Shown in pieces: positions 19,601 through 40,196 of a stretch of DNA of 64,000 bases (its first letter is position 1; each line of letters opens with the position of its first letter). A model generated the notes under the pieces. The model was not told where the DNA came from. It saw only the letters and a program-made list of their open reading frames with translations, and did no database searches. Position numbers and translations under genes: made by a program. The stretch is from Candidatus Thiovulum imperiosus (GTDB lineage: Bacteria > Campylobacterota > Campylobacteria > Campylobacterales > Thiovulaceae): contig JAMJTW010000010.1 of the NCBI GenBank assembly GCA_024281175.1, forward strand, positions 36,976 to 100,975, in the 5' to 3' direction.

Positions 19601-20025
19601 CTCCACTTGCTGAACTTGAAATGGTTGAGGAAGATGGCAAAGTTGGAAAACTCCGATGGAAAGAGGGTATCAAATCTGACCGAAAACCTTGGCAGTTCGC
19701 TGAATACAATAAAGATATTGATAATATCTGGTGGGACGGACTTTCAGGTGCATGGCAAAATGCCGTAGCTGCTCCTCACCCAGACCCAATTTCTGGAATG
19801 CACTGCTGGCACCAAAAAGTTCTTCTTGAACCTGTAAGCAGAGATGAGAAAATTGGTGATGTCTATGTAAATTATGACAACAACTTAAAAGTTTATCAAG
19901 CGTGGAGAGACGAACTAACTCGACCACTAAACTCTTCAGATAAACTTAGAAGACCAATGCACATCAAACGACCATGGGTTCCTATTTCTAAAAAAGGTTA
20001 CTCAGTCGAAATCAAAGATGTTTAG
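16678..20025 (+). CDS. Molybdopterin oxidoreductase catalytic subunit (PsrA/PhsA/SoeA type)
   Basis: The product starts with a Tat signal (SRRNFLKGTALAVGG), so it is exported folded. A [4Fe-4S] site CSNCEASCGL with GRNCAKG follows near residue 97, then the usual molybdopterin-binding domains. At 1115 residues it is longer than PsrA or PhsA. With the ferredoxin and NrfD subunits it forms a respiratory complex acting on an inorganic sulfur compound or similar oxyanion. Polysulfide, thiosulfate, tetrathionate or sulfite are all possible and the sequence alone does not decide. The last 240 bases occur again, diverged, at 24473-24740. Confidence 0.85.
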   Translation: MFFESRRNFLKGTALAVGGVAVAKGVFSGVSPELEASSEFSTTPENLDFYPPFEEWKDFNELDGDDWKRGGIDRKGIQSEKNPDGIKVNNFTIVPTACSNCEASCGLTAWVDKETMTVKKYMGNPLHAGSRGRNCAKGYATQSQMYDPDRIPFPLKRAEGSKRGEGKWVRTTWDEAMTTIGKKMGDTLRNGDELSKKSVMFHVGRPNENGFTGKVWHTLGVDSFNSHTNICSSGGRTPTIQWANDDRSSPDWANAKLIFLNSSHAADAGHYFQQSASFIADARKKGAKMVVMDPRLSNSAGIADLWIAAWPGTEPIIYLYIANRILQEGKVDNAFVKNWVNWDRFIKNKNYLEFIAEKGYISEVPTGETYEDFIEVLKELYAPYTLDYASEETHVPKEKLEALYDMFIWAGDAVSTYFWRAAAAGNRGGWMSGRAGFLPLVLRGAIGSEGGTFFHHWHVISVAGKGGKSTVGNGDVPKVDHWNELAWPPEWPLSTYEMSYLLPHLLADEEWQQKWTARGLKVPTKLSVWIPRMYNPVWINPDGFRWIDVLKDESKMELTFNLSPTWSETNWYVDYILPVGLAGERHDQHSEATMPGRWTSFRQPVLRVAMEQAGWKAKNPNRATLEAHIKAGLGEIWEENEFWMDMAVNYIDPTGDLGVRKHWESKKHAGKPVTIAEWYDAAFSKLPNLVKTAKAKYPDAEYPVYSYMRDHGTWLEEDKIYHAQKRELHEKVEEVYDASTDTYITKECYVSHGHKYNKKFVTKDEYGTLIYEQDGHKKAIGVEVDGKLRSGFATLSKKLEFFSEWLAEWKWPEYAIPFYPRNEEEKESMVHLVSHVHHKYMTEKNDRGEKNSFALNTVFRLPYNIHTRSVNSKHLMEISQNHDPIWISTGDAERLGFKRGDAVKVKIVDSVSGLDSGYFVGMAVPTEGVLPGTLACSHHGGRWRVVNSVEIQNGNEGEFQPEGFTGQLGVMGIGAPLAELEMVEEDGKVGKLRWKEGIKSDRKPWQFAEYNKDIDNIWWDGLSGAWQNAVAAPHPDPISGMHCWHQKVLLEPVSRDEKIGDVYVNYDNNLKVYQAWRDELTRPLNSSDKLRRPMHIKRPWVPISKKGYSVEIKDV

Positions 20026-20056
20026 AACTTCCTAACATCTTTTCCCCACTTGGGGG
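19790..20056 (+). repeat. Direct repeat copy A: 3' end of the molybdopterin gene and its terminator
   Basis: From TTTCTGGAA to the CCCCACTTGGGG hairpin this segment matches 24473-24735. Within the coding part I count about 11 base differences. Ten are synonymous and one changes K to Q. Copy B has also lost four bases (TGCA) close to its left edge. Copy A is the functional gene end. Confidence 0.85.
20039..20056. terminator. CCCCACTTGGGG hairpin behind the oxidoreductase operon
   Basis: A short stem (CCCC/GGGG) preceded by a T run lies just after the stop codon. The same word occurs at 24718 and 32716, each time at a border of the accessory island, so it may be part of the repeated module as much as a terminator. 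Confidence 0.45.
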
Positions 20057-20097
20057 AGCTTCACTTTCTTGTAAAATTTCAAAAAAGGATTTTTGAA

Positions 20098-20420: not shown

Positions 20421-20969
20421 ATGGAACCAAATTTTAACATACAACTTTTAGAAATTATCGATGATGAACCAAGAATTTCACATGTAATTATTGCTGAATA
20501 CACAAACAACAATCCTATTTCAGTTAGAAAACTCATTGATAAATACCATAGCAAAATGGAACTTTTTGGAAAGGTGTCATTTCAAATGACACCTATAAAA
20601 AACTCGAAAAATCGGGTTAATGAAGAAAAAACTTATTTCCTAAACGAACCTCAAGCAACTCTACTTTTAACTTTTTTGCGAAACAATGAAATTGTTGTAA
20701 AGTTCAAGGTTGATTTAGTCAAAGTGTTTTACGAAATGCGAATGAAACTTCACAACAACACTCCTGTTTCAAAACTCTCTCTTTCTGAAACTGTTTCGCA
20801 AACTCGTGAAGCTCTGGAACTCATAGACCTTTTGAAAGAGCGAAAAGGTTTTGATTTGTTACTTTTGGAAAAGATTTTGAAAGAGAATTCTCCAACAAAA
20901 CTTTTAGAAATTGACTTTTCCCAGAAATTCCAAAAGAGATTGGGAATCTCTCCAATTTGCAATCTTTAA
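20421..20969 (+). CDS. Rha-like phage regulatory protein, chimeric 3' end
   Basis: The first 165 or so residues match the copies at 33008 and 63444: LLEIIDDEPRISH, the Rha core KTYFLNEPQATLLLTFLRNN and FEMRMKL-type helices. Rha-type proteins are phage and mobile-element regulators. Where the paralogues continue DFSQTYFLPTELGQLLG, this gene switches at DFSQ into LRR-coding DNA read out of frame and stops after 15 junk residues. The C-terminal domain is therefore missing and activity is doubtful. Confidence 0.7.
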   Translation: MEPNFNIQLLEIIDDEPRISHVIIAEYTNNNPISVRKLIDKYHSKMELFGKVSFQMTPIKNSKNRVNEEKTYFLNEPQATLLLTFLRNNEIVVKFKVDLVKVFYEMRMKLHNNTPVSKLSLSETVSQTREALELIDLLKERKGFDLLLLEKILKENSPTKLLEIDFSQKFQKRLGISPICNL

Positions 20970-21274
20970 GTTTGGGTTCAAACCAAATCATAGAAATTCC
21001 AAAAGAGATTGGGAATCTCTCTAATTTGCAATTTTTGTGTTTGTCTCAAAACCAAATCATGGAACTTCCAAAAGAGATTGGAAATCTCACGAATTTGCAA
21101 TCTTTGAATTTGCAAGGAAGCCAAATCACGGAACTTCCCTCTTCAATTAATAACTTAAGAAGAGTTAATCGCTCTTACAGTGGAAGCAATTGGATTTCCC
21201 CCTCTTCCAACGAAACCCCTTTCCAATTTCTGAACAGAGCTTTAGGATTGCCAGAAAAGAAAAGTCTTGATTAA
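20920..21274 (+). CDS. Short leucine-rich-repeat protein or fragment
   Basis: The LRR frame opens at about 20920 inside the Rha gene, with a first possible ATG at 20957. It encodes four repeats of the type LPKEIGNLTNLQSLNLQG and a C-terminal cap (ETPFQFLNRALGL). The cap matches that of the 838-residue LRR lipoprotein at 37680 (ETPLQFLNRVLEL). It has no signal peptide and is probably the 3' end of a larger LRR gene brought in by recombination. It overlaps the ATPase start. Confidence 0.6.
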
Positions 21275-22283
21275 AACTCTAAAACTCAAAAATCTTGGAG
21301 TTGTAAAAAACCTAGAAGTCTCCTCTTTTGGAAATATCAATATTTTTATCGGAAAAAATGACTCTGGTAAAACTATGATTTTAAAAGCTCTCTACACAAT
21401 TGTTAAGAGTTTAGAAAACTTCAAAAAAGGTGATGACAGTAGAAGTTTTAAAGAAATTTTGAGTGAAAAGACTTTTTGGACTTTTCAAGTTGAAAAAGTT
21501 GGTGATTTAGTCTCAAAAGATAGAGAAGATAAATCGGAACACATCCAAATAGAGATAAATTGTCATAACCAGAAAGTTGGTTTTTCATTCAGCCATTCAA
21601 CGACAAAAAATATTTCCAACACTTTGGAAAGTCCTAAAAATAGAGAGGCAAACTCAATTTTTATTCCTGCTAAAGAGGTTCTTTCTCTCTTCTCAATTAT
21701 CAGAAACTCAAGAACAGTTGATAAGGTTTTTGGATTTGATGATACTTTTCTTGACTTGGTAAATGCTCTTGAAAAAGAGCCTCAAAAAGGTCGGCAATAT
21801 CAAAGTTTTGTTTCAAGTAAGGAGAAACTAAATTCTCTTCTCTCTGGAAAAATAACTCTTAAAAATGGAAAGTGGATTTTTGACAAAAATAAGATGAAAA
21901 TCTCTATTCACTCTACTGCTGAAGGAATTAAAAAAATTGGTGTTCTTGATAGACTTATTTCAAATAGATTTTTAACTCCAGAAAGCATGGTTTTCATTGA
22001 TGAACCAGAAGCATTTTTACATCCTCAAGCAATTTTAGAGTTTTTAGATATTTTAGAAATTCTCTCTAAAAATGGGATACAGATTTTTATTGCTACTCAC
22101 TCCTATTTTGTAATTAAGAAGTTGATGATAATTGCTAAAAAATCAGATATGGATATTCCCCTTATTTCACTTTTAGAAAACGGAGAACATGAAATCTCAA
22201 ATTTAAAAACTGATGTTTTAGATAACTTAATTATTGATACTTCTATAAAATTGTATGAAGAAGAGATAGAAATTGAATGGTAG
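21267..22283 (+). CDS. AAA_21/OLD-like ABC-type ATPase, possible defence effector
   Basis: The protein begins IKTLKLKNLGVVKNLEVSSF and has Walker A GKNDSGKT at residues 29-36, Walker B VFIDEPEAFLHP and the ATHS switch, all in SMC/RecF-like order with a short middle. The TTG start overlaps the LRR stop by eight bases, and the end overlaps the next gene by seven, so the two are coupled. Such ATPases pair with nuclease or Toprim partners in anti-phage systems such as Septu, Gabija and PARIS. This pair does not clearly match any of them. Confidence 0.75.
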   Translation: MIKTLKLKNLGVVKNLEVSSFGNINIFIGKNDSGKTMILKALYTIVKSLENFKKGDDSRSFKEILSEKTFWTFQVEKVGDLVSKDREDKSEHIQIEINCHNQKVGFSFSHSTTKNISNTLESPKNREANSIFIPAKEVLSLFSIIRNSRTVDKVFGFDDTFLDLVNALEKEPQKGRQYQSFVSSKEKLNSLLSGKITLKNGKWIFDKNKMKISIHSTAEGIKKIGVLDRLISNRFLTPESMVFIDEPEAFLHPQAILEFLDILEILSKNGIQIFIATHSYFVIKKLMIIAKKSDMDIPLISLLENGEHEISNLKTDVLDNLIIDTSIKLYEEEIEIEW

Positions 22284-22633
22284 TTATTGAAGAGTCTGAA
22301 ATAAGTTTTCAATTTGAAGATGCCGATGAAGTTTATCAAATTGAAAAAGATAGCTTTTATAAAAACAGATCATCAAAATATGGTGAAAAAGATGTTGATT
22401 TCATATTTTTAAAAGATAGACAGCTCTTTTTTATTGAAGCTAAAAAGTCTGTTCATCAAGATTTAGAAAAATATATCACAGAATTATCGAAAAAACTAAT
22501 CGATAGCTTTAATATCTACTCTGCGATATTATCAAACAAATTAGAAAGTAGAGAGATTTCAACTCTTTTTGAGATTTCAATATTTGTATTTAATCAAGAA
22601 CAAGCTATTTCAAAAGGTTTAGTACAAAAATAG
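22277..22633 (+). CDS. Small putative PD-(D/E)XK nuclease-like partner
   Basis: The 118-residue protein contains EKDVDFIFL, a turn, and QLFFIEAKKS, which fits the D-X(12)-EXK core of the restriction-endonuclease fold (D41, E54, K56). This is a motif reading, not a family match. It is translationally coupled to the ATPase and ends 38 bases before the promoter of the retroelement RNA. A role as DNA-cutting subunit of the ATPase is inferred. Confidence 0.5.
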   Translation: MVVIEESEISFQFEDADEVYQIEKDSFYKNRSSKYGEKDVDFIFLKDRQLFFIEAKKSVHQDLEKYITELSKKLIDSFNIYSAILSNKLESREISTLFEISIFVFNQEQAISKGLVQK

Positions 22634-22670: not shown

Positions 22671-22676
22671 TATAAT
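22671..22676 (+). promoter_or_regulatory. TATAAT -10 box of the retroelement RNA
   Basis: A perfect TATAAT sits in an A/T-rich tract after the nuclease gene, so transcription should begin near 22683. No clear -35 is seen, which is normal for Campylobacterota sigma-70 promoters. Confidence 0.65.
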
Positions 22677-22682
22677 TTTAGA

Positions 22683-23041
22683 ACCATGTCTATTTGAGAT
22701 GTGAGGAAACTGTTAGAATTGCTGAAAGAAGAATTCTTCTTATCAGCATCAGATGGATCGAGTGTTTCATAACATTCCTTTCAATACTTCACTAAGTATA
22801 CTAACAGTAAGCTTTGAGGCTTTAAACCCAAGAAAGGTAGTTAGCAACTACTGTAGATTTGACGAAATCTATGCCCGAATGTGGATTTTTTTGTCTCAAT
22901 AACAAAACAGCAAACCATTGATAAACTAAAGTAATCTCATATTTAAGCTCTGTGGGTTAGAGCAAGTATTACTTTGAGTTTTGAGAGGCAGGTAGTAAAG
23001 TAGAGTGAGACTGCTTTGCCACCATTTGGAAAAGAGTAAGT
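22683..23041 (+). ncRNA. Structured RNA upstream of the reverse transcriptase (DRT2-like template RNA)
   Basis: About 360 bases without a conventional gene separate the promoter from the RT start. They hold at least six stems that I can pair by eye: 22721-22747 (13-bp arms with one bulge), 22810-22824, 22837-22851 (GTAGTT/AACTAC), 22854-22871 (TAGATTT/AAATCTA), 22928-22975 (AAAGTAAT/ATTACTTT enclosing GCTCT/AGAGC) and 22987-23020 (GGCA/TGCC plus GTAGT/ACTGC). In DRT2 systems an RNA in this place is the template for rolling-circle reverse transcription. The ends are inferred. Confidence 0.75.
22763..22898 (+). other. Predicted rolling-circle template unit (neo-like, 129 nt, stop-free)
   Basis: TGTTTCA at 22763-22769 and TGTCTCA at 22892-22898 are near-identical and start exactly 129 bases apart. 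The sense frame with codons starting at 22765 has no stop through 22893 (43 codons). Joining the end of the unit to its start at the heptamer keeps that frame, so a concatemer would be one endless ORF. One in-frame ATG lies at 22879. Without the jump the frame ends at a TAA at 22900. The two other sense frames have stops inside the unit. Confidence 0.6.
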
Positions 23042-24469
23042 ATGAAAGATAATTATATAAAGAGAGTTAAAAAGTGTGGTTGGTATGAACAGAAATCATA
23101 TTTACACTTTGACACTCCATTAAGTTTTGAAAAAGCTCTAAAAAAAGTATCTAATCCAAAATATGTTGAAAAACACCCTTTTCTTCCATTTCTTAGATTT
23201 ACTAAAGAGGAGAGAAAATTTAATCCTAAAAAATATGGAGAAGAGAGATATAAAACAAAAAATAGAGAAATTTCATATGCAAGTCATAAAGATGGCTATA
23301 TTTACAGCTACTATGCAAAAATGTTAAATGGTGGATATGAAACCTTGCTAAAAAACTATGAGCTTGAAAATAATGTTTTAGCTTTTAGAAAAATTGAAAA
23401 AGATGATGGCAAAGGAAAAAGTAATATAGATTTCGCAAAAGAGGTTTTTGAAAAAATAAAAAGTTTTGAAGAGTGTAGTGTTTTAGCAATGGATTTTTCA
23501 AAATTTTTTGATACTTTAGACCATCAGCTTCTAAAAGAGAAGTGGTCTCGAGTTTTAAATGTAGATAAGTTACCAGAAGACCATTTTAAAGTTTTTAAAT
23601 CACTAACAAAGTTCTCTTTTATTGATAGAGATAAAATATATTGTAAATTAGGCATTTCACGACACAACCCAAAACCAAAAAATAAAAATAGAGTGGCTAT
23701 CTGTGAGAAAGAAAACTTCCAAAAACTTAGAGAAATTATCAAAGAAGATAAGGAGCAAGTTCCAAATAGAGAGAAAAGATTACTTCAAGTAAATGATAAT
23801 GGTTTTGGAATTCCTCAGGGTTCAGCATTGAGTGGGCTTCTCTCAAATATTTACATGATTGATTTTGATAAAGAAGTAAAAAAATATATAGAAAGTTCAG
23901 GTGGAAAATATTATAGATATTGTGATGACATAATCATTATTGCAAAATTTGGAGAAGTTGATAAAGTAGAAAAAGTAATTTTAGATAAATTTGTTAAAGA
24001 GCTAAAAACTGTTCAGATAAATAAAGATAAAACAGAAAAGTTTCATTTTTACAATGGAAGAATACTTGGTAATAAATTATTGCAATATTTAGGTTTTATG
24101 TTTGATGGTCAAAATATATACTTTCGTTCATCTTCAATTTCTCGGTATTATCGCAAAATGAATAGAGGAATAAGAGTTGCGAAGAAAACTCAACTGACAA
24201 GAAATAGAGTTAGAAGAAAAAAAGGTTTTAAAGAGAGAGAACTTTATAAAAATAGAATCTATGAGTTATATCCATCTATGGGAAAAAGAAATTTTATAAC
24301 TTATGTAAAAAGAGCTATTAGAAATATGGATAATAGTCCTACTTTAAAAAAACAGATGAAAAAATTTCAAAAGATGTTTGATAAAAGAATGAAACAGCAT
24401 GAAAAACCACCTAAAAAGAATAATCATCCTTCAAAAAATATTTTTTGTAAAAACTTACTGAATAATTAA
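23042..24469 (+). CDS. Defence-type reverse transcriptase, probably DRT2 (UG2)
   Basis: The 475-residue protein has all RT motifs: MDFSKFFDTLD (motif A, D151), GIPQGSALSGLLSNIYM (B), YRYCDDIIII (C, YCDD at 293-296), NKDKTEKF (D) and YLGFMFDGQNIYF (E). The N-terminal block (GWYEQKSYLHFD and HPFLPFLRF) and a basic C-terminal tail lack the maturase and HNH domains of group II introns. YCDD, a single ORF and a long upstream RNA fit DRT2, which stops phage by making concatemeric cDNA that encodes Neo. The UG2 assignment rests on recalled family features. Confidence 0.8.
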   Translation: MKDNYIKRVKKCGWYEQKSYLHFDTPLSFEKALKKVSNPKYVEKHPFLPFLRFTKEERKFNPKKYGEERYKTKNREISYASHKDGYIYSYYAKMLNGGYETLLKNYELENNVLAFRKIEKDDGKGKSNIDFAKEVFEKIKSFEECSVLAMDFSKFFDTLDHQLLKEKWSRVLNVDKLPEDHFKVFKSLTKFSFIDRDKIYCKLGISRHNPKPKNKNRVAICEKENFQKLREIIKEDKEQVPNREKRLLQVNDNGFGIPQGSALSGLLSNIYMIDFDKEVKKYIESSGGKYYRYCDDIIIIAKFGEVDKVEKVILDKFVKELKTVQINKDKTEKFHFYNGRILGNKLLQYLGFMFDGQNIYFRSSSISRYYRKMNRGIRVAKKTQLTRNRVRRKKGFKERELYKNRIYELYPSMGKRNFITYVKRAIRNMDNSPTLKKQMKKFQKMFDKRMKQHEKPPKKNNHPSKNIFCKNLLNN

Positions 24470-24472
24470 GAG

Positions 24473-24735
24473 TTTCTGGAACTGCTGGCACCAAAAAGTT
24501 CTTCTTGAACCTGTAAGCAGAGATGAGAAAATTGGTGATGTCTATGTAAATTACGATAATAACTTACAAGTTTATCAAGCGTGGAGAGACGAACTTACTC
24601 GACCTCTTAACTCTTCAGATAAACTTAGAAGACCAATGCATATCAAACGACCTTGGGTTCCTATTTCCAAAAAAGGTTACTCGGTCGAAATCAAAGATGT
24701 TTAGAACTTCCTAACATCTTTTCCCCACTTGGGGA
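24473..24735 (+). pseudogene. Direct repeat copy B: diverged 3' end of the molybdopterin gene
   Basis: The segment repeats the last 78 codons of the gene at 16678 together with its stop codon and CCCCACTTGGGG hairpin. It cannot be expressed as a gene because it has no start. A 4-base deletion lies near its left edge. Nearly all substitutions are silent, so this copy evolved under protein-level selection elsewhere before arriving here. It begins four bases after the RT stop codon and marks the right border of the DRT2 insertion. Confidence 0.85.
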
Positions 24736-24739
24736 AACT

Positions 24740-24961
24740 TCAGTTTTGATTTTTTTCTATCTGGTTGTGAATAAAAAATAGCCTATCTTTTATATCCATT
24801 GTTTCAAGAGCATTTATTAAAACTTCAATATAAGTTGGAACTTCATCTTTCTTTTTCCAATAAGCAGATGGTGTGCTTTTGTCAATATTTAACATTAGAG
24901 CCAAATCTCTATTAGAAAGTTTTATCTCTTTTAATTTATCTCTAAATGTATTGTAATTCAA
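24740..24961 (-). CDS. Small XRE-family HTH protein
   Basis: The 73-residue protein contains the HTH segment LSNRDLALMLNIDKSTPSAYWKKKDEVPTYIEVLINAL. It is not closely related to the KTCRELGITQKELA family of this island. It is transcribed divergently from the HTH relic at 25104, and strong dyads lie between them, so it is likely a local repressor. Confidence 0.65.
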   Translation of the reverse strand: MNYNTFRDKLKEIKLSNRDLALMLNIDKSTPSAYWKKKDEVPTYIEVLINALETMDIKDRLFFIHNQIEKNQN

Positions 24962-26231: not shown

Positions 26232-26422
26232 ATTTTCTTCCAACAGAACTTGGAAAACTTCTTGGAATTTCTCCACATGAAATGAATTTGCTTTTGGAGA
26301 AAAAGGGTTTTCAAGAAAATGAAAATGGAATTTGGAAAATTACAGAAAGTGGAAAAAGTTTTGGAATGGAAATTGGAGGAAAGTTTTCACAACTCAAATG
26401 GAGAGTGGAAAGTATTGTATAA
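26225..26422 (+). pseudogene. Orphan Rha C-terminal domain
   Basis: An open frame without a start encodes FLPTELGKLLGISPHEMNLL and runs on through ITESGKSFGMEIGGKF to a stop at 26422. It matches the C-terminus of the Rha copy at 33475-33670 almost residue for residue. The N-terminal half of such a gene lies 5 kb to the left (20421), so cargo seems to have entered between the two parts. Confidence 0.75.
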
Positions 26423-26446: not shown

Positions 26447-26677
26447 ATGAAGAAAGCAATAAATATCAGAATGGAAGAGGAACTTCTAAAAAATTTGGAT
26501 AGCTATGCAAAAGAGCTAGATAGAACTAGAACATACCTCATCGAAAAGGCAGTAACTCTCTATTTGGATACTTTAGATGGAATGGTTTCAGACAAAAGAA
26601 TTGATGATGTCAAAAGTGGAAAAAGTGAAGTCTATTCACTTCAAGAAGTTGCTCAAAAATTGGGACTAGATGTATAA
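26447..26677 (+). CDS. Ribbon-helix-helix antitoxin
   Basis: The 76-residue protein begins MKKAINIRMEEELLKNLDSYAKELDRTRTYLIEKAVTLYL, a typical RHH (CopG/Arc-like) DNA-binding fold, with a C-terminal tail (YSLQEVAQKLGL) that would wrap the toxin. It overlaps the toxin gene by eight bases. Antitoxin and operon autorepressor is the expected role. Confidence 0.82.
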   Translation: MKKAINIRMEEELLKNLDSYAKELDRTRTYLIEKAVTLYLDTLDGMVSDKRIDDVKSGKSEVYSLQEVAQKLGLDV

Positions 26678-26921
26678 AATCATCATTCCTGAACATACTT
26701 TCAAAGAACTTTCTAAAATAGATAAACCAAATCAGCAACTTGTTTTTAACAAAATCAAAGATTTAGAAAGTGGAATTTTTACAGGAGATAAACCTTTAAA
26801 AGGAAAACATCAGGGCAAGTTCCGAAAAAGGGCTGGAAATTATCGAATTATCTATTTAAAAGAGAACAATATTCTTCTTATTACAGTTATCAGAATTACA
26901 CATAGAAAAGAGATTTATTAA
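26670..26921 (+). CDS. RelE/ParE-family toxin
   Basis: The 83-residue protein has the RelE/ParE core: IPEHTFKELSKID, KIKDLESGIFTGDKPLKGKHQGKFRKRAGNYRIIYL and a final IRITHRKEIY with the family histidine and tyrosine. RelE-type members cut mRNA on the ribosome and ParE-type members poison gyrase. The RITHRKEIY ending fits the RelE group better. Confidence 0.82.
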   Translation: MYKIIIPEHTFKELSKIDKPNQQLVFNKIKDLESGIFTGDKPLKGKHQGKFRKRAGNYRIIYLKENNILLITVIRITHRKEIY

Positions 26922-27179: not shown

Positions 27180-27276
27180 TATTTTTGAGGTTCTATTTCC
27201 AGCAGGTTTTATAGTTACTGGAATTACAGCATATTTTGCACATAAATATAATTGGAAAATTGCAAAGTGGTTTTAA
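27169..27276 (+). CDS. 35-residue membrane peptide
   Basis: An ATG inside the end of the preceding gene opens a short frame with one hydrophobic segment (VLFPAGFIVTGITAYFAHKY) and a basic tail, too short for the ORF track. It overlaps the previous stop and the MntA start. Translational coupling makes it plausible, but there is no independent support. Confidence 0.35.
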   Translation: MESNIFEVLFPAGFIVTGITAYFAHKYNWKIAKWF

Positions 27277-27581
27277 ATGAGATAATTTTTCGACTCCAAA
27301 AGCTAAATAGAGAGTTTGAAAAAGTTGGTTTCTATATTATTGGAGTTTTTGGAAGTTATGCGAGAGGTGAAAATAGAGAAGATAGTGATTTAGATATTCT
27401 CTATAAAATAGATAATAAGTTTGTAGAAAAATTTGGGGGTTGGAGTGCAATTATTGAGATTGAGAAGATAAAGTCAAAAATAGAGAAGAGTTTGAATATC
27501 TCAAAAGTTGATTTGGCAACATCAGATACAAATAATCAAACATTACAGAATGCTATTCAAAAGGAGCTTGTTTTTGTCTAA
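27267..27581 (+). CDS. mntA: MntA-type nucleotidyltransferase antitoxin
   Basis: The minimal nucleotidyltransferase motif is intact (GVFGSYARGENREDSDLDILY), with GSxxRG followed by two catalytic aspartates. MntA antitoxins AMPylate the HepT toxin at its active-site region. The track starts at TTG 27252; the in-frame GTG at 27267 is equally possible. The end overlaps hepT by eight bases. Confidence 0.85.
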   Translation: MVLNEIIFRLQKLNREFEKVGFYIIGVFGSYARGENREDSDLDILYKIDNKFVEKFGGWSAIIEIEKIKSKIEKSLNISKVDLATSDTNNQTLQNAIQKELVFV

Positions 27582-27915
27582 GAGTGATATTGAAAGATTG
27601 AGGTTTGCATTTGAAAAAGTTGAAGATGCTCTAAATTATAGAGATAGTTTTGAGAGTATTGAAAAACTTTTAAATTCAAAAATGGGCTTTGACGCAACAA
27701 CAATGTGTATTATGCAAGTTGGAGAGACTCTTAATAAATTAGATAAAAGTTTTGCAAAGAAGTATCCACAACTACCAATTAAAGAGAGTTATTTAACAAG
27801 AAACTATATAGCTCACGATTACGAAGGAGTTAGTAAGATGATAATTGAGGTGATTATTAGAGAACATTTTCCAAAATTGAAAAATGATATTTTAGATATT
27901 TTGAGAAATAGATGA
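27574..27915 (+). CDS. hepT: HepT-type HEPN toxin
   Basis: The HEPN ribonuclease signature RX4HXY is present as RNYIAHDY near the C-terminus. The track begins at 27508, but AAGGAG at about 27561 followed by TTG at 27574 gives a 113-residue product of family size (SKSDIERLRFAFEKVEDAL). It pairs with the MntA gene just before it as a type VII-like toxin-antitoxin system. Confidence 0.85.
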   Translation: MSKSDIERLRFAFEKVEDALNYRDSFESIEKLLNSKMGFDATTMCIMQVGETLNKLDKSFAKKYPQLPIKESYLTRNYIAHDYEGVSKMIIEVIIREHFPKLKNDILDILRNR

Positions 27916-29231: not shown

Positions 29232-29486
29232 ATGCAACAAACTTATAAACTAACGATAGATGAGTCAATAGCAGATAAAATTTTGTGGTTGTTGAACAGT
29301 TTGAAAGAGAATATCAGTATTGAAAAAGTTGAAACAGAAAGAGATAATAGTTTCTTGTCTTCTCTTTCTCAAGAAAAACAGATTGAAGCAAAAGAGATAA
29401 TTTCAAGTATTCAAAATGGTTTAAATGATGTCAAAAATGGAAAAATTCACTCAATTGAAACTCTTTGGGATAAATTAGATGATTGA
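29232..29486 (+). CDS. Antitoxin of a RelE-type pair
   Basis: The 84-residue protein (KLTIDESIADKILWLLNSL, then SIQNGLNDVKNGKIHSIETLWDKL) has the form of small antitoxins with a C-terminal toxin-binding helix. The gene overlaps the toxin by eight bases. The broken antitoxin at 8896-9094 resembles it in layout and C-terminus. Confidence 0.75.
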   Translation: MQQTYKLTIDESIADKILWLLNSLKENISIEKVETERDNSFLSSLSQEKQIEAKEIISSIQNGLNDVKNGKIHSIETLWDKLDD

Positions 29487-29796
29487 TTATTCGGATAATT
29501 TTCTTAAAGAGGTCAAACAACTTTCAAAGAAATTCAAACGAATAAAATTTAATTTGCAAATATCAATTAGAGAAATTGAAGAGAACATACTTGGTGCTCC
29601 TCTCAAAAATCACCTTTACAAAAAAAGAGTTCCAAACTCTTCAATTCCAACAGGAAAAAGTGGAGGTTTCAGGATTATTCTTTTTAAAAAGGTAGAAAAC
29701 AACATAACACTTTTATCAATATTTTCAAAAACTGAAAAAGAGAACTTGACAAATAAAGAGCTAGAAAAAATTCTTAGTGAAGTTAATTTTATTTAA
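29479..29796 (+). CDS. RelE-family toxin
   Basis: The 105-residue protein starts MIDYSDNFLKEVKQLSKKFKRIK and contains SIPTGKSGGFRIILFKK and LSIFSKTEKENLTNKEL, typical of the RelE/HigB-like family with the KTEKENLTNKE helix. It is the intact counterpart of the relic at 9085. An mRNA interferase is the most likely role. Confidence 0.82.
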   Translation: MIDYSDNFLKEVKQLSKKFKRIKFNLQISIREIEENILGAPLKNHLYKKRVPNSSIPTGKSGGFRIILFKKVENNITLLSIFSKTEKENLTNKELEKILSEVNFI

Positions 29797-29815: not shown

Positions 29816-30163
29816 AAGGAGAATATCTCTAAAAGTCGAAAAAAAGGAAATCAAGAAACTCAACTGAAAAATAGAACTACCCAAATTAAAGAACTTATCA
29901 CAGATAATTTACAAGATTTTGAAGAGTTTGGACAGCTTCGGTTTCAAACCGAGAGTGTAAGCAATTCGGTAGGTGCAGTAAACGAACAGAAAACTTATTG
30001 GGATTTCTTCGCACGAAATGAATTTACTTTACTTTTGGAGAAAAAAGGTTTTCAGGAAAATGAGGACGGAGTTTGGAAAATTACAGAAAGTGGAAAAGAG
30101 TTTGGAATGGAGATTGGAGGAAAGTTTTCACAACTGAAATGGAGAGTAGATACAATATTGTAA
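29815..30163 (+). pseudogene. Rha relic with internal deletion
   Basis: An open frame without ATG runs ISKSRKKGNQETQLKNRT, then a Rha core start (FGQLRFQTESVSNSVGAVNEQKTY). It jumps directly into the Rha C-terminus (LLLEKKGFQENEDGVWKI to SQLKWRVDTIL). About 90 residues that should separate these blocks are missing. The end sits three bases before the restriction-modification gene. Confidence 0.7.
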
Positions 30164-30166
30164 AAA

Positions 30167-32455
30167 ATGAAAAAAATTGAAAGACAACTACAAGGGGAAT
30201 TTCTCCATGTCTTTAAAACTCTTTTTTCTGAAGAGAAATATAGAGACTTTGAAATTATTCAAGAGGAGGAGAGAGCAGATTTAATAGTTTCTAAAAGTGG
30301 AAAAGCTCTTTTCTTTCTGGAGTTGAAAGACCCGTTGGTAGTTAAAAGTTCTGGAGATGCGGAAACTTTTAAAAGAGAAACTTTACGAGCAGTTAGAATT
30401 GGTATTCCACATTTTGGAATTACAAATTTTGTGGAGGCAAGTATCTACTCTTTGCAAGTAGAAACCAAGGAAAACTACGAAAACAGAGATTTTCCAAAAC
30501 TTTCAGATATAGAGAGATACCGAAATAGTAAAACAGTTTCAAAAGATTTAAATAGAAAGCTCCAAAATTTAGCAATTTGGTATCTCAAAAAAGCAGAAGC
30601 GATTTTCTTAAAAGGTGACATTCCAGAACAAGCTCCAGATGAAATTTTTATTTTGAAACTTCAAAGAGGAATTGAGCGATTTGGATTTAAAATTTCAGAA
30701 AGAGTTTTTGAAAAGTATCAGAAGAGTAGAGATTTTGCAATAGAGATACAGAACTACTTTCAATCTCAACAGTGGAGTATTCCAACAGAAGAAGCTGATT
30801 TCGACAATTTTTCACACATTGCTGTTTTACAATTTGTCTCAAAAATCATTTTTTACAACTCTATAAAAGATTTTGGAAAGTATGGATTAGGTGAAATTGA
30901 TAAAGATGATATTTGGAACTCTTTTGAGGAATTGAAAGAGAAGACTGGAAATTTTGAACTTCTGATTGGAGAGAATAGTTTTCTTGAAAGTAAGGTAGTA
31001 GAAGATTTTTCAAAAGAGATAGCTGATGAGGTTCTGGAAAATTCAGAGAAGTATAACTTTTCCAAAATGAAAGAGGACATCATCGGGCGAATTTTTGAGG
31101 AACTAATAAAACCGAATGAGAGACACAAATTAGGACAGTACTTCACCTCATCAGCAGTTGTAAAAACTGTAAATGCTTTTTGTATTCGAGAAGCGAACCT
31201 TAAAGTTCTTGACCCAAGTTGCGGTTCAGGTGCATTTCTTACAGAGGTTTATGAGAGGAAAAAAAGTTTAGGAGAGAAAGACCACACCAAACTTTTAGAA
31301 GAGATATATGGAGTTGATATTTCAAGCTACCCATCTTATTTAGCAACTCTCAATCTAGCAATTCGGAATTTAGGCGAAAAGTCCTATCCTCGAATTGTTC
31401 AGAAAGATTTCTTCCAAGTTGCGAAGAGTTTGGAAAAGTCTGTTTCAAAAGAGAAAATTCATGATAGCGATGGGGTAGAGCAAGAAGTCGAATTTACACA
31501 ATTTGATGCAATTGTTGGAAATCCTCCATACACTCGACAAGAGGATATTGATGCCTACAATCCAAATCAGAAAGAGCAAATTTTAGAGACTCTAGCTTCA
31601 GAGTTGGGAGGTTTTACAAAACATATTTCAAAACGAACTTCAATTTATGCCTATTTCTTCTATCGAGCAAAACGACTTTTAAAAGATGGTGGATACCTCG
31701 GTTTTATAACTTCAAACTCTTGGCTTGATGTCGATTTTGGCGAAACTCTTCAAAAACATCTTCTTAAAAACTTTCATGTCGTCGCAATCATCGATAGCAA
31801 AGTTGAACGATTTTTTGAAAGTGCTGATGTCAATACAAATATCACTATTTTGAAAAAAGGGAAAGGGAAAAGAACTAAATTTGTCTATCTAAAAAAACCT
31901 CTTTCGGAAGTTCTAAAAAAGTTTGGTGGTGAAATTGGATTTAGGGATTTTATAGAAGAGCAGAACACTCTTTTTGAAGATGAGTTCTTAAGAGTAAATC
32001 CAGTTTCTCAATGCCGACTCTCCAAAGATACGAAATGGAGCAAATACCTAAAAGCCCCTAAAGTCTATTGGGAAATCTTGAAAAAAGGTAAAGGGAAATG
32101 GAAGAGATTGGGGGATATTGCAAATGTAAGATTTGGAGTAAAAACAGGTGCAAATGAGTTTTTCTATTTAGAGAAATTGGAAGAAAAAGGAGACTCCTAT
32201 CTTCTAAAAAATGGAATTGGTGAAGAAGTTCTAATTGAGAAAAGGTTTATAAAACCTGTCATCAAATCTCCTCGAGAAATTAAAGGTTTTGTTGTAAAAC
32301 CTGAAGAACTTAAATATTCGGTTCTTATGGTTTCGGGTCTTGAACGAGAAGAGATTTCAAAGAAATTTCCAAATCTTGAAAGATACTTGAAAAGAGGTGA
32401 AGAACGAAACTACCATGAGAGAAGCTCACTTAAAAGTAGGCGAAAAGAGTTCTAA
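30167..32455 (+). CDS. Type IIG restriction-modification enzyme, C-terminally truncated
   Basis: An N-terminal nuclease-like block (ERADLIVSKSGKALFFLELKD, D-X(n)-ELK) is followed by a helical linker. The N6-adenine methyltransferase domain has LGQYFTSSAVVK, motif I DPSCGSGAFL and motif IV VGNPPYTRQ. A target-recognition region begins near residue 630 (WKRLGDIANVRFGVKTGANEFFYL) but breaks off at HERSSLKSRRKEF. Type IIG enzymes are usually 900 or more residues. The usual tail appears out of frame just downstream, so the specificity half was lost. Without it, specific cutting or methylation is doubtful. Confidence 0.8.
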   Translation: MKKIERQLQGEFLHVFKTLFSEEKYRDFEIIQEEERADLIVSKSGKALFFLELKDPLVVKSSGDAETFKRETLRAVRIGIPHFGITNFVEASIYSLQVETKENYENRDFPKLSDIERYRNSKTVSKDLNRKLQNLAIWYLKKAEAIFLKGDIPEQAPDEIFILKLQRGIERFGFKISERVFEKYQKSRDFAIEIQNYFQSQQWSIPTEEADFDNFSHIAVLQFVSKIIFYNSIKDFGKYGLGEIDKDDIWNSFEELKEKTGNFELLIGENSFLESKVVEDFSKEIADEVLENSEKYNFSKMKEDIIGRIFEELIKPNERHKLGQYFTSSAVVKTVNAFCIREANLKVLDPSCGSGAFLTEVYERKKSLGEKDHTKLLEEIYGVDISSYPSYLATLNLAIRNLGEKSYPRIVQKDFFQVAKSLEKSVSKEKIHDSDGVEQEVEFTQFDAIVGNPPYTRQEDIDAYNPNQKEQILETLASELGGFTKHISKRTSIYAYFFYRAKRLLKDGGYLGFITSNSWLDVDFGETLQKHLLKNFHVVAIIDSKVERFFESADVNTNITILKKGKGKRTKFVYLKKPLSEVLKKFGGEIGFRDFIEEQNTLFEDEFLRVNPVSQCRLSKDTKWSKYLKAPKVYWEILKKGKGKWKRLGDIANVRFGVKTGANEFFYLEKLEEKGDSYLLKNGIGEEVLIEKRFIKPVIKSPREIKGFVVKPEELKYSVLMVSGLEREEISKKFPNLERYLKRGEERNYHERSSLKSRRKEF

Positions 32456-33015: not shown

Positions 33016-33670
33016 CGACGAACCAAGAATTTCACATCGTGTAATTGCTGAACATACAAATAATCAGCAGAAAAATGTTGTCGAGCTTATTCAAAAATAC
33101 ATCGATAAATTCGAGCTTTTTGGAGCGGTTCCGTTTAAAACGGAAGTGCTAAAAGCTGGAAGGGGAACAACAAAAGCTAAAACTTATTTCCTAAACGAAC
33201 CTCAAGCCACTTTACTTTTAACCTTTTTACGAAACAATGAAATTGTTGTAGAGTTCAAAGTTGATTTAGTCAAAGTGTTTTACGAAATGCGAATGAAACT
33301 TCAAAACCATACCCCTTCTCAAAAACTCTCTCTTTCTGAAACTGTTGCCGAAACTGAAATTGCCTTAAAACTCATAGACCTTTTAAAAGAGAGCAAAGGT
33401 TTCGATTTGCTACTTTTGGAAAAGGTTTTGAAAGAGAGTTCACCAACAAAACTTTTAGAAATAGACTTTTCTCAAACCTACTTTCTTCCAACAGAACTCG
33501 GACAACTTCTTGGAATTTCTCCGCATGAAATGAACTTGCTTTTGGAGAAAAAAGGCTTCCAAGTTTCTAAGAACGGAGTTTGGAAAATTACAGAGAGTGG
33601 AAAAAGTTTTGGAATGGAGATTGGAGGAAAGTTTTCACAACTGAAATGGAGAGTAGATACAATTTTGTAA
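33008..33670 (+). CDS. Rha-like regulatory protein, module copy 2
   Basis: The full Rha homology begins at KIIDDEPRISHRVIAEHT close to 33008, but that part has no ATG, GTG or TTG. The first usable start is GTG 33146, used by the track (174 residues). The core KTYFLNEPQATLLLTFLRNN and the complete C-terminus (YFLPTELGQLLGISPHEM to WRVDTIL) are present. A deletion between HTH and Rha probably removed the promoter and start, so expression by coupling or silencing are both possible. Confidence 0.65.
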   Translation: MIDDEPRISHRVIAEHTNNQQKNVVELIQKYIDKFELFGAVPFKTEVLKAGRGTTKAKTYFLNEPQATLLLTFLRNNEIVVEFKVDLVKVFYEMRMKLQNHTPSQKLSLSETVAETEIALKLIDLLKESKGFDLLLLEKVLKESSPTKLLEIDFSQTYFLPTELGQLLGISPHEMNLLLEKKGFQVSKNGVWKITESGKSFGMEIGGKFSQLKWRVDTIL

Positions 33671-37679: not shown

Positions 37680-40196
37680 ATGAGGTATTTTTTATTTTTA
37701 TTACTGTTTTTAGGGTGTGGAGGAAATCCAAACTCAGGAAATTCTGGAGTTTACACCAGAGAGGTTACATATCGAGCTGAGGAAGAAGAGAGTGAAAGTG
37801 AAGCTCGAAAAAAGGCAGAACTCAAACTCAAAAATCTTGTCTCTAAAAAGGCAAGGATTTTTATATCTTCATATTATAAACAGTCTCAAAATGGACAAGT
37901 TAGCAAATCTCTTGAACAAGCTCTCATTACTAAACCCGAACATTTTATGGAACTTGAAACTTTAGACCACTCTTGGAAAGATAGAATTTATACTCTTAAA
38001 GCCAAAGTTACAATCGTTAAAGAGAAAATTGATGATGAGGTTAAAAACTTAGATAAATCTTATATATGGAACGGAAAAGATTTCAAATTTCCACATCTTT
38101 CTAAAGAGAGCAGTTTTCAAAACGCAATTTCAAAAAGTGAAATTCCCTCAATTTCAAAAGGAGAATATGAATCTGATGATGATTTTCAGAAAAGAAGAGT
38201 TGAAACTTATAAAGATATTCTAAACTCTTGGCTCGGAAAACAGGATTTTGAAATGGAATATGATGTTAATGAAGAGATTTTCACTATTGTCGAAAATCGA
38301 ACTGACATCTCTTTTGAAATGAGAGTTCCAAGAAGAGAGGCCAAAAACTTTGAAAAGAGTACAAAAAGTATGGAAATTTTCATTGAAGAGAGAAAAGATG
38401 GACTTTTTGTTACAGGAATTCGGAAAGATGGATATTTTGTAAAAACTGAGCAGAGATTAGATTTATGGCATTTTGAAATAGAAAAATGGAGTGATGAATT
38501 TGAATTGAGTCTTCCAAAAGGAAAAAAGGAACTTTTAAAAGTTGAGGGAATAATTGCAAAGGGTAACTCTCCAGATACAAAGGAAAAGTTTGCAAAAAGG
38601 AAAAAGAATAGAGGTAAAAATTTAGACAACTACTATTTTGCACATACAAAAAAGAATAAGATTACTTATCTTCCAAACTCTATTGGGAAGCTCACCAATT
38701 TGGAAACTTTGAACTTGTTTGACAATCAACTAACGACACTTCCAAACTCTATTGAGAAGCTCACCAATTTGGAAACTTTGAATTTGTGGAAGAACCAACT
38801 GATGATACTTCCAAACTTCATTGGGAAACTCACTAATTTGAAAACTTTGAATTTGCGGAATAACCAACTAATGAGACTTCCAAACTCTATTGAGAAGCTC
38901 ACAAACTTGGAAACTTTGAATTTGGGAGAGAATTCAAATTTGGATTTTGATTCTACATTCAAGATTCTGACTCAAATTCCGAATTTGAAATATCTGTTTT
39001 TAAAAGGAAATAAACTAACAGAACTTCCAAACTCTTTTGGGAAGCTCACAAATTTGAAAACCTTAAGTTTGCAAAATAATCCAAATTTGAATTTTGATTC
39101 TACATTCAAGATTCTGACTCAAATTCCAAATTTGGAATCTCTGTTTTTAGGACAAAATGAACTAACAGAACTTCCAAACTCTTTTGGGAAGCTCACCAAT
39201 TTGAAAACCTTGAGTTTGCAAAATAATCCAAATTTGAATTTTGATTCTACATTCAAGATTCTGACTCAAATTCCAAATTTGAAAATTTTGAACTTGCAGA
39301 AAAACGAACTAAAAGAACTTCCAGACTTCTTTGGAAATCTTACCAATTTGAAAACTTTGAATTTGCGAGACAACAAACTAACGACACTTCCAAACTCTTT
39401 TGGAAATCTCACCAATTTGAAAACTTTGAACTTGGAGAATAATAAGCTAACGATACTTCCAGACTCCTTTGAAAATCTCTCCAATTTGGAAAAATTATTG
39501 TTGAATTTAAATCAACTAAAAAAACTTCCAAACTTCTTTGGAAATCTCACTAATTTGAAAGAATTATCGTTGAGTTCAAACCAACTAATGATACTTCCAG
39601 ACTCTTTTGGGAATCTCACTAATTTAGCATCTTTATTGTTGAATTCAAACCAACTAACAACACTACCAGACTCCTTTGGGAATCTCACAAGTTTGCAAAC
39701 ATTAGACTTGTATTCAAACCAACTAACAACACTACCAGACTCTTTTGGAAATCTCTCCAATTTGCAAGAACTGTATTTATATTTAAACCAACTAACAACA
39801 CTACCAGACTCTTTTGGAAATCTCAAGAACTTGCAAGAACTATATTTCTATTCAAACCAATTAACAACACTTCCAGACTCCTTTGGAAATCTCACTAATT
39901 TGAAAAATCTGTTTTTGTTTTATAATGAACTACAAGAACTTCCAAGTTCCATTGGAAATCTCACCAATTTGCAAACATTGGATTTGAATTCAAATGAACT
40001 AACAACACTTCCAAATTCCATTGGGAAGCTAACCAATTTACAAACATTGGATTTGAATTCAAATCAACTAATGACACTTCCAAGTTCAATAAATTCGCTT
40101 TCAAAACTGAAAGAAGCGAAATGTTGTGGTGAAAAAAGAGACACAAACAATGAAACCCCTCTCCAATTCTTGAACAGAGTTTTAGAATTGAAGTAA
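37680..40196 (+). CDS. Large leucine-rich-repeat lipoprotein
   Basis: The N-terminus YFLFLLLFLGCGG is a lipobox signal (LFLGC), so the protein is lipid-anchored. Residues 25-110 (EARKKAELKLKNLVSKKARI, then RIYTLKAKVTI) resemble the FlgT-N/LPP20 type of periplasmic domain. From about residue 325 there are some 18 LRRs of 23 residues (LPDSFGNLTNLQTLDLYSNQLTT type). Three of them are expanded by an SNLDFDSTFKILTQIPNLK insert. A cap follows (ETPLQFLNRVLEL). Protein-protein binding at the cell envelope is inferred. The DNA repeats are nearly identical and prone to recombination. Confidence 0.8.
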   Translation: MRYFLFLLLFLGCGGNPNSGNSGVYTREVTYRAEEEESESEARKKAELKLKNLVSKKARIFISSYYKQSQNGQVSKSLEQALITKPEHFMELETLDHSWKDRIYTLKAKVTIVKEKIDDEVKNLDKSYIWNGKDFKFPHLSKESSFQNAISKSEIPSISKGEYESDDDFQKRRVETYKDILNSWLGKQDFEMEYDVNEEIFTIVENRTDISFEMRVPRREAKNFEKSTKSMEIFIEERKDGLFVTGIRKDGYFVKTEQRLDLWHFEIEKWSDEFELSLPKGKKELLKVEGIIAKGNSPDTKEKFAKRKKNRGKNLDNYYFAHTKKNKITYLPNSIGKLTNLETLNLFDNQLTTLPNSIEKLTNLETLNLWKNQLMILPNFIGKLTNLKTLNLRNNQLMRLPNSIEKLTNLETLNLGENSNLDFDSTFKILTQIPNLKYLFLKGNKLTELPNSFGKLTNLKTLSLQNNPNLNFDSTFKILTQIPNLESLFLGQNELTELPNSFGKLTNLKTLSLQNNPNLNFDSTFKILTQIPNLKILNLQKNELKELPDFFGNLTNLKTLNLRDNKLTTLPNSFGNLTNLKTLNLENNKLTILPDSFENLSNLEKLLLNLNQLKKLPNFFGNLTNLKELSLSSNQLMILPDSFGNLTNLASLLLNSNQLTTLPDSFGNLTSLQTLDLYSNQLTTLPDSFGNLSNLQELYLYLNQLTTLPDSFGNLKNLQELYFYSNQLTTLPDSFGNLTNLKNLFLFYNELQELPSSIGNLTNLQTLDLNSNELTTLPNSIGKLTNLQTLDLNSNQLMTLPSSINSLSKLKEAKCCGEKRDTNNETPLQFLNRVLELK
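38940..39290 (+). repeat. Long near-identical DNA repeats inside the LRR gene
   Basis: A unit of about 150 bp (starting CTAACAGAACTTCCAAACTC and including AATTTTGATTCTACATTCAAG) is present two to three times with few changes, giving the expanded LRRs. Shorter 69-bp LRR units fill the rest of the gene from 38655 to 40120. Confidence 0.75.

Follow-up and report, generated by a model that had tools for sequence, protein, structure and literature searches.

A stretch of 64,000 nucleotides (nt) from the draft genome of Candidatus Thiovulum imperiosus (Campylobacterota; GenBank assembly GCA_024281175.1, contig JAMJTW010000010.1, positions 36,976 to 100,975 of the forward strand), referred to here as the window, carries a DRT2 defence locus at positions 22671–24469, consisting of a single reverse transcriptase (RT) gene and an upstream structured non-coding RNA (ncRNA). 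Membership of DRT2, based on the RT and on the RNA architecture, is secure. The hallmark of these systems, an endless open reading frame (ORF) known as neo that is read from concatemeric complementary DNA (cDNA), fails in the window, a result that an earlier reading from sequence alone (the first-pass annotation) could not show. The locus is classed as a DRT2 variant; its product is probably no standard endless ORF and may well be a closed one.

The neo hallmark in control loci and in the window

In published DRT2 systems the template lies between short repeats, the reverse strand contains an endless ORF, and −35 and −10 promoter elements are joined at the junction (PMC12039810, PMC11100668). 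This hallmark was reproduced with a control set of more than 30 DRT2-like loci (plasmid, phage, IMG/VR, E. coli and species-genome sequences) by a script that required a template bracketed by a shared word, a unit length divisible by 3, a reverse-strand frame free of stops, and −35 and −10 elements 16–18 nt apart across the junction. The canonical solution was recovered in about 20 diverse loci (gamma- and alphaproteobacterial, Bacillota and unassigned viral contigs), and an open frame with a promoter match of at least 11/12 arose in 0.3% of shuffled sequences. Units in the solved loci are 111–150 nt long; translated in frame, the −10 mostly gives Tyr-Asn or Tyr-Thr. The template mostly starts 5–7 nt past the handle hairpin. 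Template words include ACA, AGAT, AGTT, CGTT, GAAG, GTAT and AGTATTA, and an endless neo with a junction promoter is found with words other than ACA in Bacillota, alphaproteobacterial and Moraxellaceae loci (L012, L021, L011, L014, L008, L151 and L143). L019 has an 87-nt unit that rests on a 2-nt word, and L009 (Calothrix) has a possible but weaker 75-nt solution; seven loci (L006, L013, L140, L142, L148, L149 and L152), with RTs mostly distant from that of the window, gave no clear solution.

In the canonical scan of the window, no unit of a length divisible by 3 with a start codon preceded by a ribosome-binding site (RBS) gives a stop-free frame, and the same script found no junction-joined −35/−10 pair with a usable frame. 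The window ncRNA contains a sole reverse-strand array of −10, RBS and ATG, an arrangement that occurs in 2.4% of shuffles:

22795..22800, reverse strand: −10 element TATACT on the cDNA-sense strand, the only match of at least 5/6 in the ncRNA with an RBS and ATG downstream
22776..22781, reverse strand: RBS AAAGGA, part of the same array

The 24-nt spacing from this −10 to the ATG at 22770 equals that in L015 and other gammaproteobacterial DRT2 neo genes. Directly beside this only start array, at 22767–22791, stops are present in all three reverse-strand frames, and a neo starting at 22770 must therefore be closed rather than endless. The first report of DRT2 noted that Neo was not readily annotated for divergent clades of DRT2, and its authors suspected that neo might be made by other means (PMC11100668).

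The reverse transcriptase and its family

23042..24469, forward strand: DRT2 RT, 475 amino acids (aa), YCDD; NF041746 489.6 bits, PADLOC Drt2 5e-152, placed by tree

The RT ORF is intact, has its YCDD motif at residues 293–296 and agrees with ten DRT2 homologues at all columns in which these do not vary; RVT_1 alone was found in a Pfam scan, with no maturase or endonuclease domains, as the first-pass annotation had described. The RT scores 489.6 bits against the NCBIfam Drt2 model (NF041746, equivalog cut-off 390) and 505 bits (5e-152) against PADLOC Drt2, where the next family reaches 80, a gap of 425 bits. Among solved structures, those nearest to it are entries for DRT2 RTs (9c0i and others, E 6e-106). 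In a tree with UG27, DGR-type (diversity-generating retroelement) and group-II-like RTs as outgroups, retron RTs not being among the sequences, the window RT lies within the DRT2 clade (support 100/99) and apart from these non-DRT2 RTs, in the Proteobacteria/Desulfovibrio part beside copies from viral contigs, plasmids and Desulfovibrio; identity to its closest relative is 47%. The earlier family call, DRT2 (UG2) or a close sister, was therefore right on both profile scores and tree placement, and the RT belongs to DRT2 itself.

That the RT is instead that of a retron, a group II intron, a DGR or another UG family has next to no probability. Such families do give weak cross-matches; the retron_St85 profile reaches 58.7 bits and the group II maturase profile 70.6 bits, each far under its cut-off (235 and 300, respectively). 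This identity is contradicted by a Drt2 score above the curated cut-off and 425 bits ahead of the next family, by the tree, which separates the window RT from DGR-type RTs and speaks against a DGR reading, and by Rfam, which shows no group II or retron RNA. A 266-nt repeat near the RT, considered as a DGR template/variable pair, is instead simply the duplicated end of a gene, with 14 changes scattered along it.

Architecture of the upstream non-coding RNA

22671..22676, forward strand: −10 element TATAAT of the ncRNA/RT transcript, a perfect match read in the sequence
22683..23041, forward strand: DRT2 ncRNA region of about 359 nt, with position and parts as in DRT2 homologues
22685..22703, forward strand: 5′ handle hairpin in the minimum free energy (MFE) structure, homologous in position to other DRT2 handles
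22947..22963, forward strand: buttress-like hairpin from the fold, in the same order as in homologues
22991..23023, forward strand: tower-like hairpin of 33 nt, at +68 from 22923
22935..22940, forward strand: candidate pseudoknot strand UCUCAU, predicted to pair with the tower loop GUGAGA (23005–23010)

The promoter and the roughly 360 nt of structured ncRNA claimed by the first-pass annotation are both borne out: the region 22683–23041 has an MFE of −95.6 versus −79.1 kcal/mol and beats 100 of 100 dinucleotide shuffles (z = −3.19). Its DRT2-like parts follow the DRT2 order of 5′ handle hairpin, template and scaffold hairpins. The best single hairpin in 18 other DRT2 loci starts +35 to +89 past the template end. 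The motif ACTTTGAGTTT at 22971 and the tower resemble those of L101 and gammaproteobacterial loci, and the motif ACTTTGAG stands 48 nt past 22923, a spacing that is 44–67 nt in three relatives. The pseudoknot pairing is by itself not significant (p = 0.35). An Rfam search gave no match for the window ncRNA, and a scaffold covariance model built from ten loci gave no significant match in the window and also missed 13 other sources, mostly true DRT2 loci. Among relatives of the RT the upstream RNA is conserved in architecture, although in sequence it is too diverged for such a model, which misses true DRT2 loci too.

Placing the template

With the spacings of handle and tower in other loci, the end of the window handle at 22703, the motif and the tower lead to an expected template end at about 22911–22930. 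AAACT, at 22707 and 22923, is the only word of at least 5 nt common to the stretches after the handle and before the scaffold, and its two copies are 216 nt apart (3 × 72); the chance of such a shared word is 0.28, or 0.09 with a length divisible by 3. These figures make the word supportive, not decisive, for the following placement:

22707..22922, forward strand: most likely template for reverse transcription (216 nt), beginning with the first AAACT and ending directly ahead of the second
22923..22927, forward strand: second AAACT, putative landing site for template jumping

Only structurally anchored template ends were trusted, because alternative jump words and ORF searches with free ends yield many chance solutions.

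A proposed closed, permuted open reading frame

A concatemer of the 216-nt unit (i = 22707, j = 22923) reads, in frame, −10, RBS, ATG, 21 codons, junction, 33 codons and TAA, giving a predicted ORF of 54 aa that is split in the genome:

22707..22770, reverse strand: putative ORF part 1, from the ATG at 22770 to the junction (MKHSIHLMLIRRILLSAILTV), with the 24-nt spacing of −10 to ATG
22822..22922, reverse strand: putative ORF part 2, from the junction to TAA (YQWFAVLLLRQKNPHSGIDFVKSTVVANYLSWV and stop), by translation of the concatemer

When MKHSIHLMLIRRILLSAILTV is joined to YQWFAVLLLRQKNPHSGIDFVKSTVVANYLSWV, the most hydrophobic 19-mer (mean 1.84) straddles the junction. With the start array fixed and the rest of the template randomised, at least 54 aa are obtained in 2.6% of cases, and in 0.17% with a membrane-like stretch over the junction as well, both figures being post hoc.

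By analogy with the Klebsiella DRT2, the RT would bind the upstream ncRNA, phage infection would trigger repeated copying of the template with the RT jumping from the template 5′ end back to the 3′ side, and the double-stranded concatemer would be expressed as a growth-arresting peptide, causing abortive infection; we infer priming, jumping, phage trigger and toxicity in the window locus from that system. The template at 22707–22922 would carry a circularly permuted closed gene, with promoter, RBS, ATG and the N-terminal half at its 5′ side and the C-terminal half and stop at its 3′ side. Once united by template jumping, the two halves would give a 54-aa peptide in which a membrane-type helix bridges the junction; the gate would then be a permuted ORF instead of a permuted promoter.

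It is very probable that the window locus is a DRT2 acting via concatemeric cDNA and a toxic product. The chances that this product is a closed ORF are put slightly below even, and its identity with exactly this 54-aa ORF is proposed tentatively. It is likewise a possibility, though the less likely side of the question, that the genome holds a toxin gene cut in two and reassembled only by the RT through rolling-circle reverse transcription, encoding a 54-aa membrane-active peptide whose helix exists only across a cDNA junction. Taken as a whole, the favoured explanation is evenly balanced between true and false.

Several points weigh against this closed, permuted ORF. The AAACT word alone is not significant (chance 0.28), the linker from handle to template is 3 nt in the window versus mostly 5–7 nt in other loci, and a template of 216 nt exceeds the lengths recovered elsewhere (75–150 nt). 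With free template ends, true neo starts of other loci also yield chance junction-crossing ORFs (with words of 5–7 nt). The model was devised after the endless-ORF test had failed and is in this respect post hoc; it is based on one genome, with no close relative showing conservation of the template. The promoter of the closed gene would be intact in genomic DNA, unlike in known DRT2. Furthermore, stop codons within neo abolish defence by the Klebsiella DRT2 (PMC11100668, PMC12039810), and a closed product would therefore be a real departure.

Alternative explanations of the template

Campylobacterota promoters have a weak −35 consensus, and the locus might be an ordinary DRT2 whose standard endless neo was missed by the scan since promoters of the phylum lack a clear −35, for example with a template at 22823–22921. 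This 99-nt unit is bracketed by TAAAC words (5 nt) and has an endless hydrophobic reverse-strand frame (QWFAVLLLRQKNPHSGIDFVKSTVVANYLSWVY), and an endless neo is the rule within the clade that holds the window RT. However, the frame lacks an RBS-preceded start codon and has a weak −10 (TATCAA), the template would start about 120 nt past the handle versus mostly 5–7 nt elsewhere, and the sole good array of −10, RBS and ATG falls outside it, which leaves this explanation rather unlikely. Equally in the unlikely range is a decayed template or an assembly indel, by which a once-endless neo is now frame-broken and the system is inactive or its sequence wrongly read. In its favour, the reverse-strand start region of the window (MKHSIHLMLIRRILLS...) is similar to the gammaproteobacterial neo (MSIVHLFISLLS...), the sequence is known from one draft genome, and the one further copy that the order yielded is a broken remnant. 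Against this, the RT is intact and lacks none of the invariant residues, no long homopolymer lies where the frame changes, and a template reaching the scaffold exceeds what the canonical layout allows.

The first candidate considered was a shorter closed unit, in which the RT would jump between TGAGG words at 22702 and 22815. Here the word is of 5 nt, the unit of 113 nt is near the canonical 111–117 nt, and an in-frame hydrophobic ORF of 38 aa has a stop that overlaps the next start (ATGA); the 145-nt unit of L006, not divisible by 3 and with an ORF ending at its own start, provides a parallel. It was demoted on scaffold geometry and is now considered very improbable, as the 33-nt tower would sit at +176 from the template end versus +35 to +89 elsewhere, the first TGAGG overlaps the handle hairpin, and ATGA overlaps are frequent by chance.

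Distribution

DRT2 is rare around the window genome: the phylum, the order and the class were sampled in three overlapping draws of about 390 genomes each, and these yielded one other copy, which is broken. This second DRT2 in the order (L098, 2440–3740, in genome G117) is a remnant whose RT has an in-frame stop (TGA) and whose upstream sequence is too short for a template. Nothing closely related to the window RT or ncRNA emerged from searches of viral, plasmid and phage sequences.

Genomic neighbourhood

21267–22283 and 22277–22633: HEC-02A/HEC-02B ATPase-nuclease candidate defence pair directly upstream of DRT2 (PADLOC 4e-130 and 3e-18)
26447–26921, 27252–27915 and 29232–29796: small toxin-antitoxin-like ORFs, read from the sequence
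30167–32455: Eco57I-type restriction-methylation gene (PADLOC/Pfam family scans)

The ATPase-nuclease pair, toxin systems and restriction gene mentioned in the first-pass annotation were all located among these neighbours. The 266-nt direct repeat (95%) occupies 19802–20067 and 24481–24746, corresponds to the 3′ end and terminator of a molybdopterin oxidoreductase gene, and flanks a 4.4-kb module of Rha, leucine-rich repeat (LRR), HEC-02 and DRT2 genes; its second copy begins 11 nt past the RT stop, and the RT may therefore use the copied terminator. In a relative (G399), recN-, nadK- and obg-like genes take the place of the module behind the molybdopterin oxidoreductase gene. Fragments of a phage Rha-type regulator, 86–90% repeated, lie between successive defence modules (20628–20920, 26234–26406, 29989–30168 and 33179–33654), as if the defence island had grown by recombination at them. 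A long imperfect tandem array at 38670–40087 matches the LRR gene at 20939–21113 and is possibly LRR-like.

Significance

The window RT is close to the well-studied DRT2 clade, yet around the sole plausible start no endless frame is possible. Should the closed permuted ORF prove true, DRT2 would be a general means of concealing ordinary toxin genes through permutation, and the same script logic could serve to look for them. If it is untrue, the locus would represent a decayed or misread template and be informative on how often DRT2 templates fail.

Comparison with known DRT2 systems

The DRT2 of Klebsiella pneumoniae (KpnDRT2; PMC12039810, PMC11100668; PDB 9c0i and related entries) shares with the window a single RT that has no additional domains and is matched along almost all of its length (E 6e-106), and an upstream ncRNA that combines a handle and a template with buttress-like and tower-like hairpins. 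KpnDRT2 differs in its 120-nt template, its ACA words, an endless ORF for neo and a promoter put together at the junction, whereas the window has no endless ORF or junction promoter and likely a longer template with a closed ORF. The DRT2 of E. coli and related viral contigs (L015–L017, L099, L100, L133 and L134), with RTs at most 47% identical to the window RT, have the same 24 nt from −10 to start codon and a neo start with a similar hydrophobic run; unlike in the window, the unit in all seven measures 117 nt, a multiple of 3, and comes with an endless frame and a −35/−10 pair across the junction.

The plasmid DRT2 of Nitratidesulfovibrio vulgaris DP4 (L006) lies near the window RT in the tree, and its canonical-phase frame is closed; it is unlike the window in its perfect TTGACA-17-TATAAT junction promoter and in a 144-nt alternative with an open frame. 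The best unit of L006 (about 2704–2848), which has the perfect junction promoter, is 145 nt long and not divisible by 3, and reading from the RBS gives an ORF of 97–99 aa that passes over successive laps in different frames and ends at its own start codon. At the best of its junctions L006 does not follow the endless rule, a hint that exceptions of this kind are not unique.
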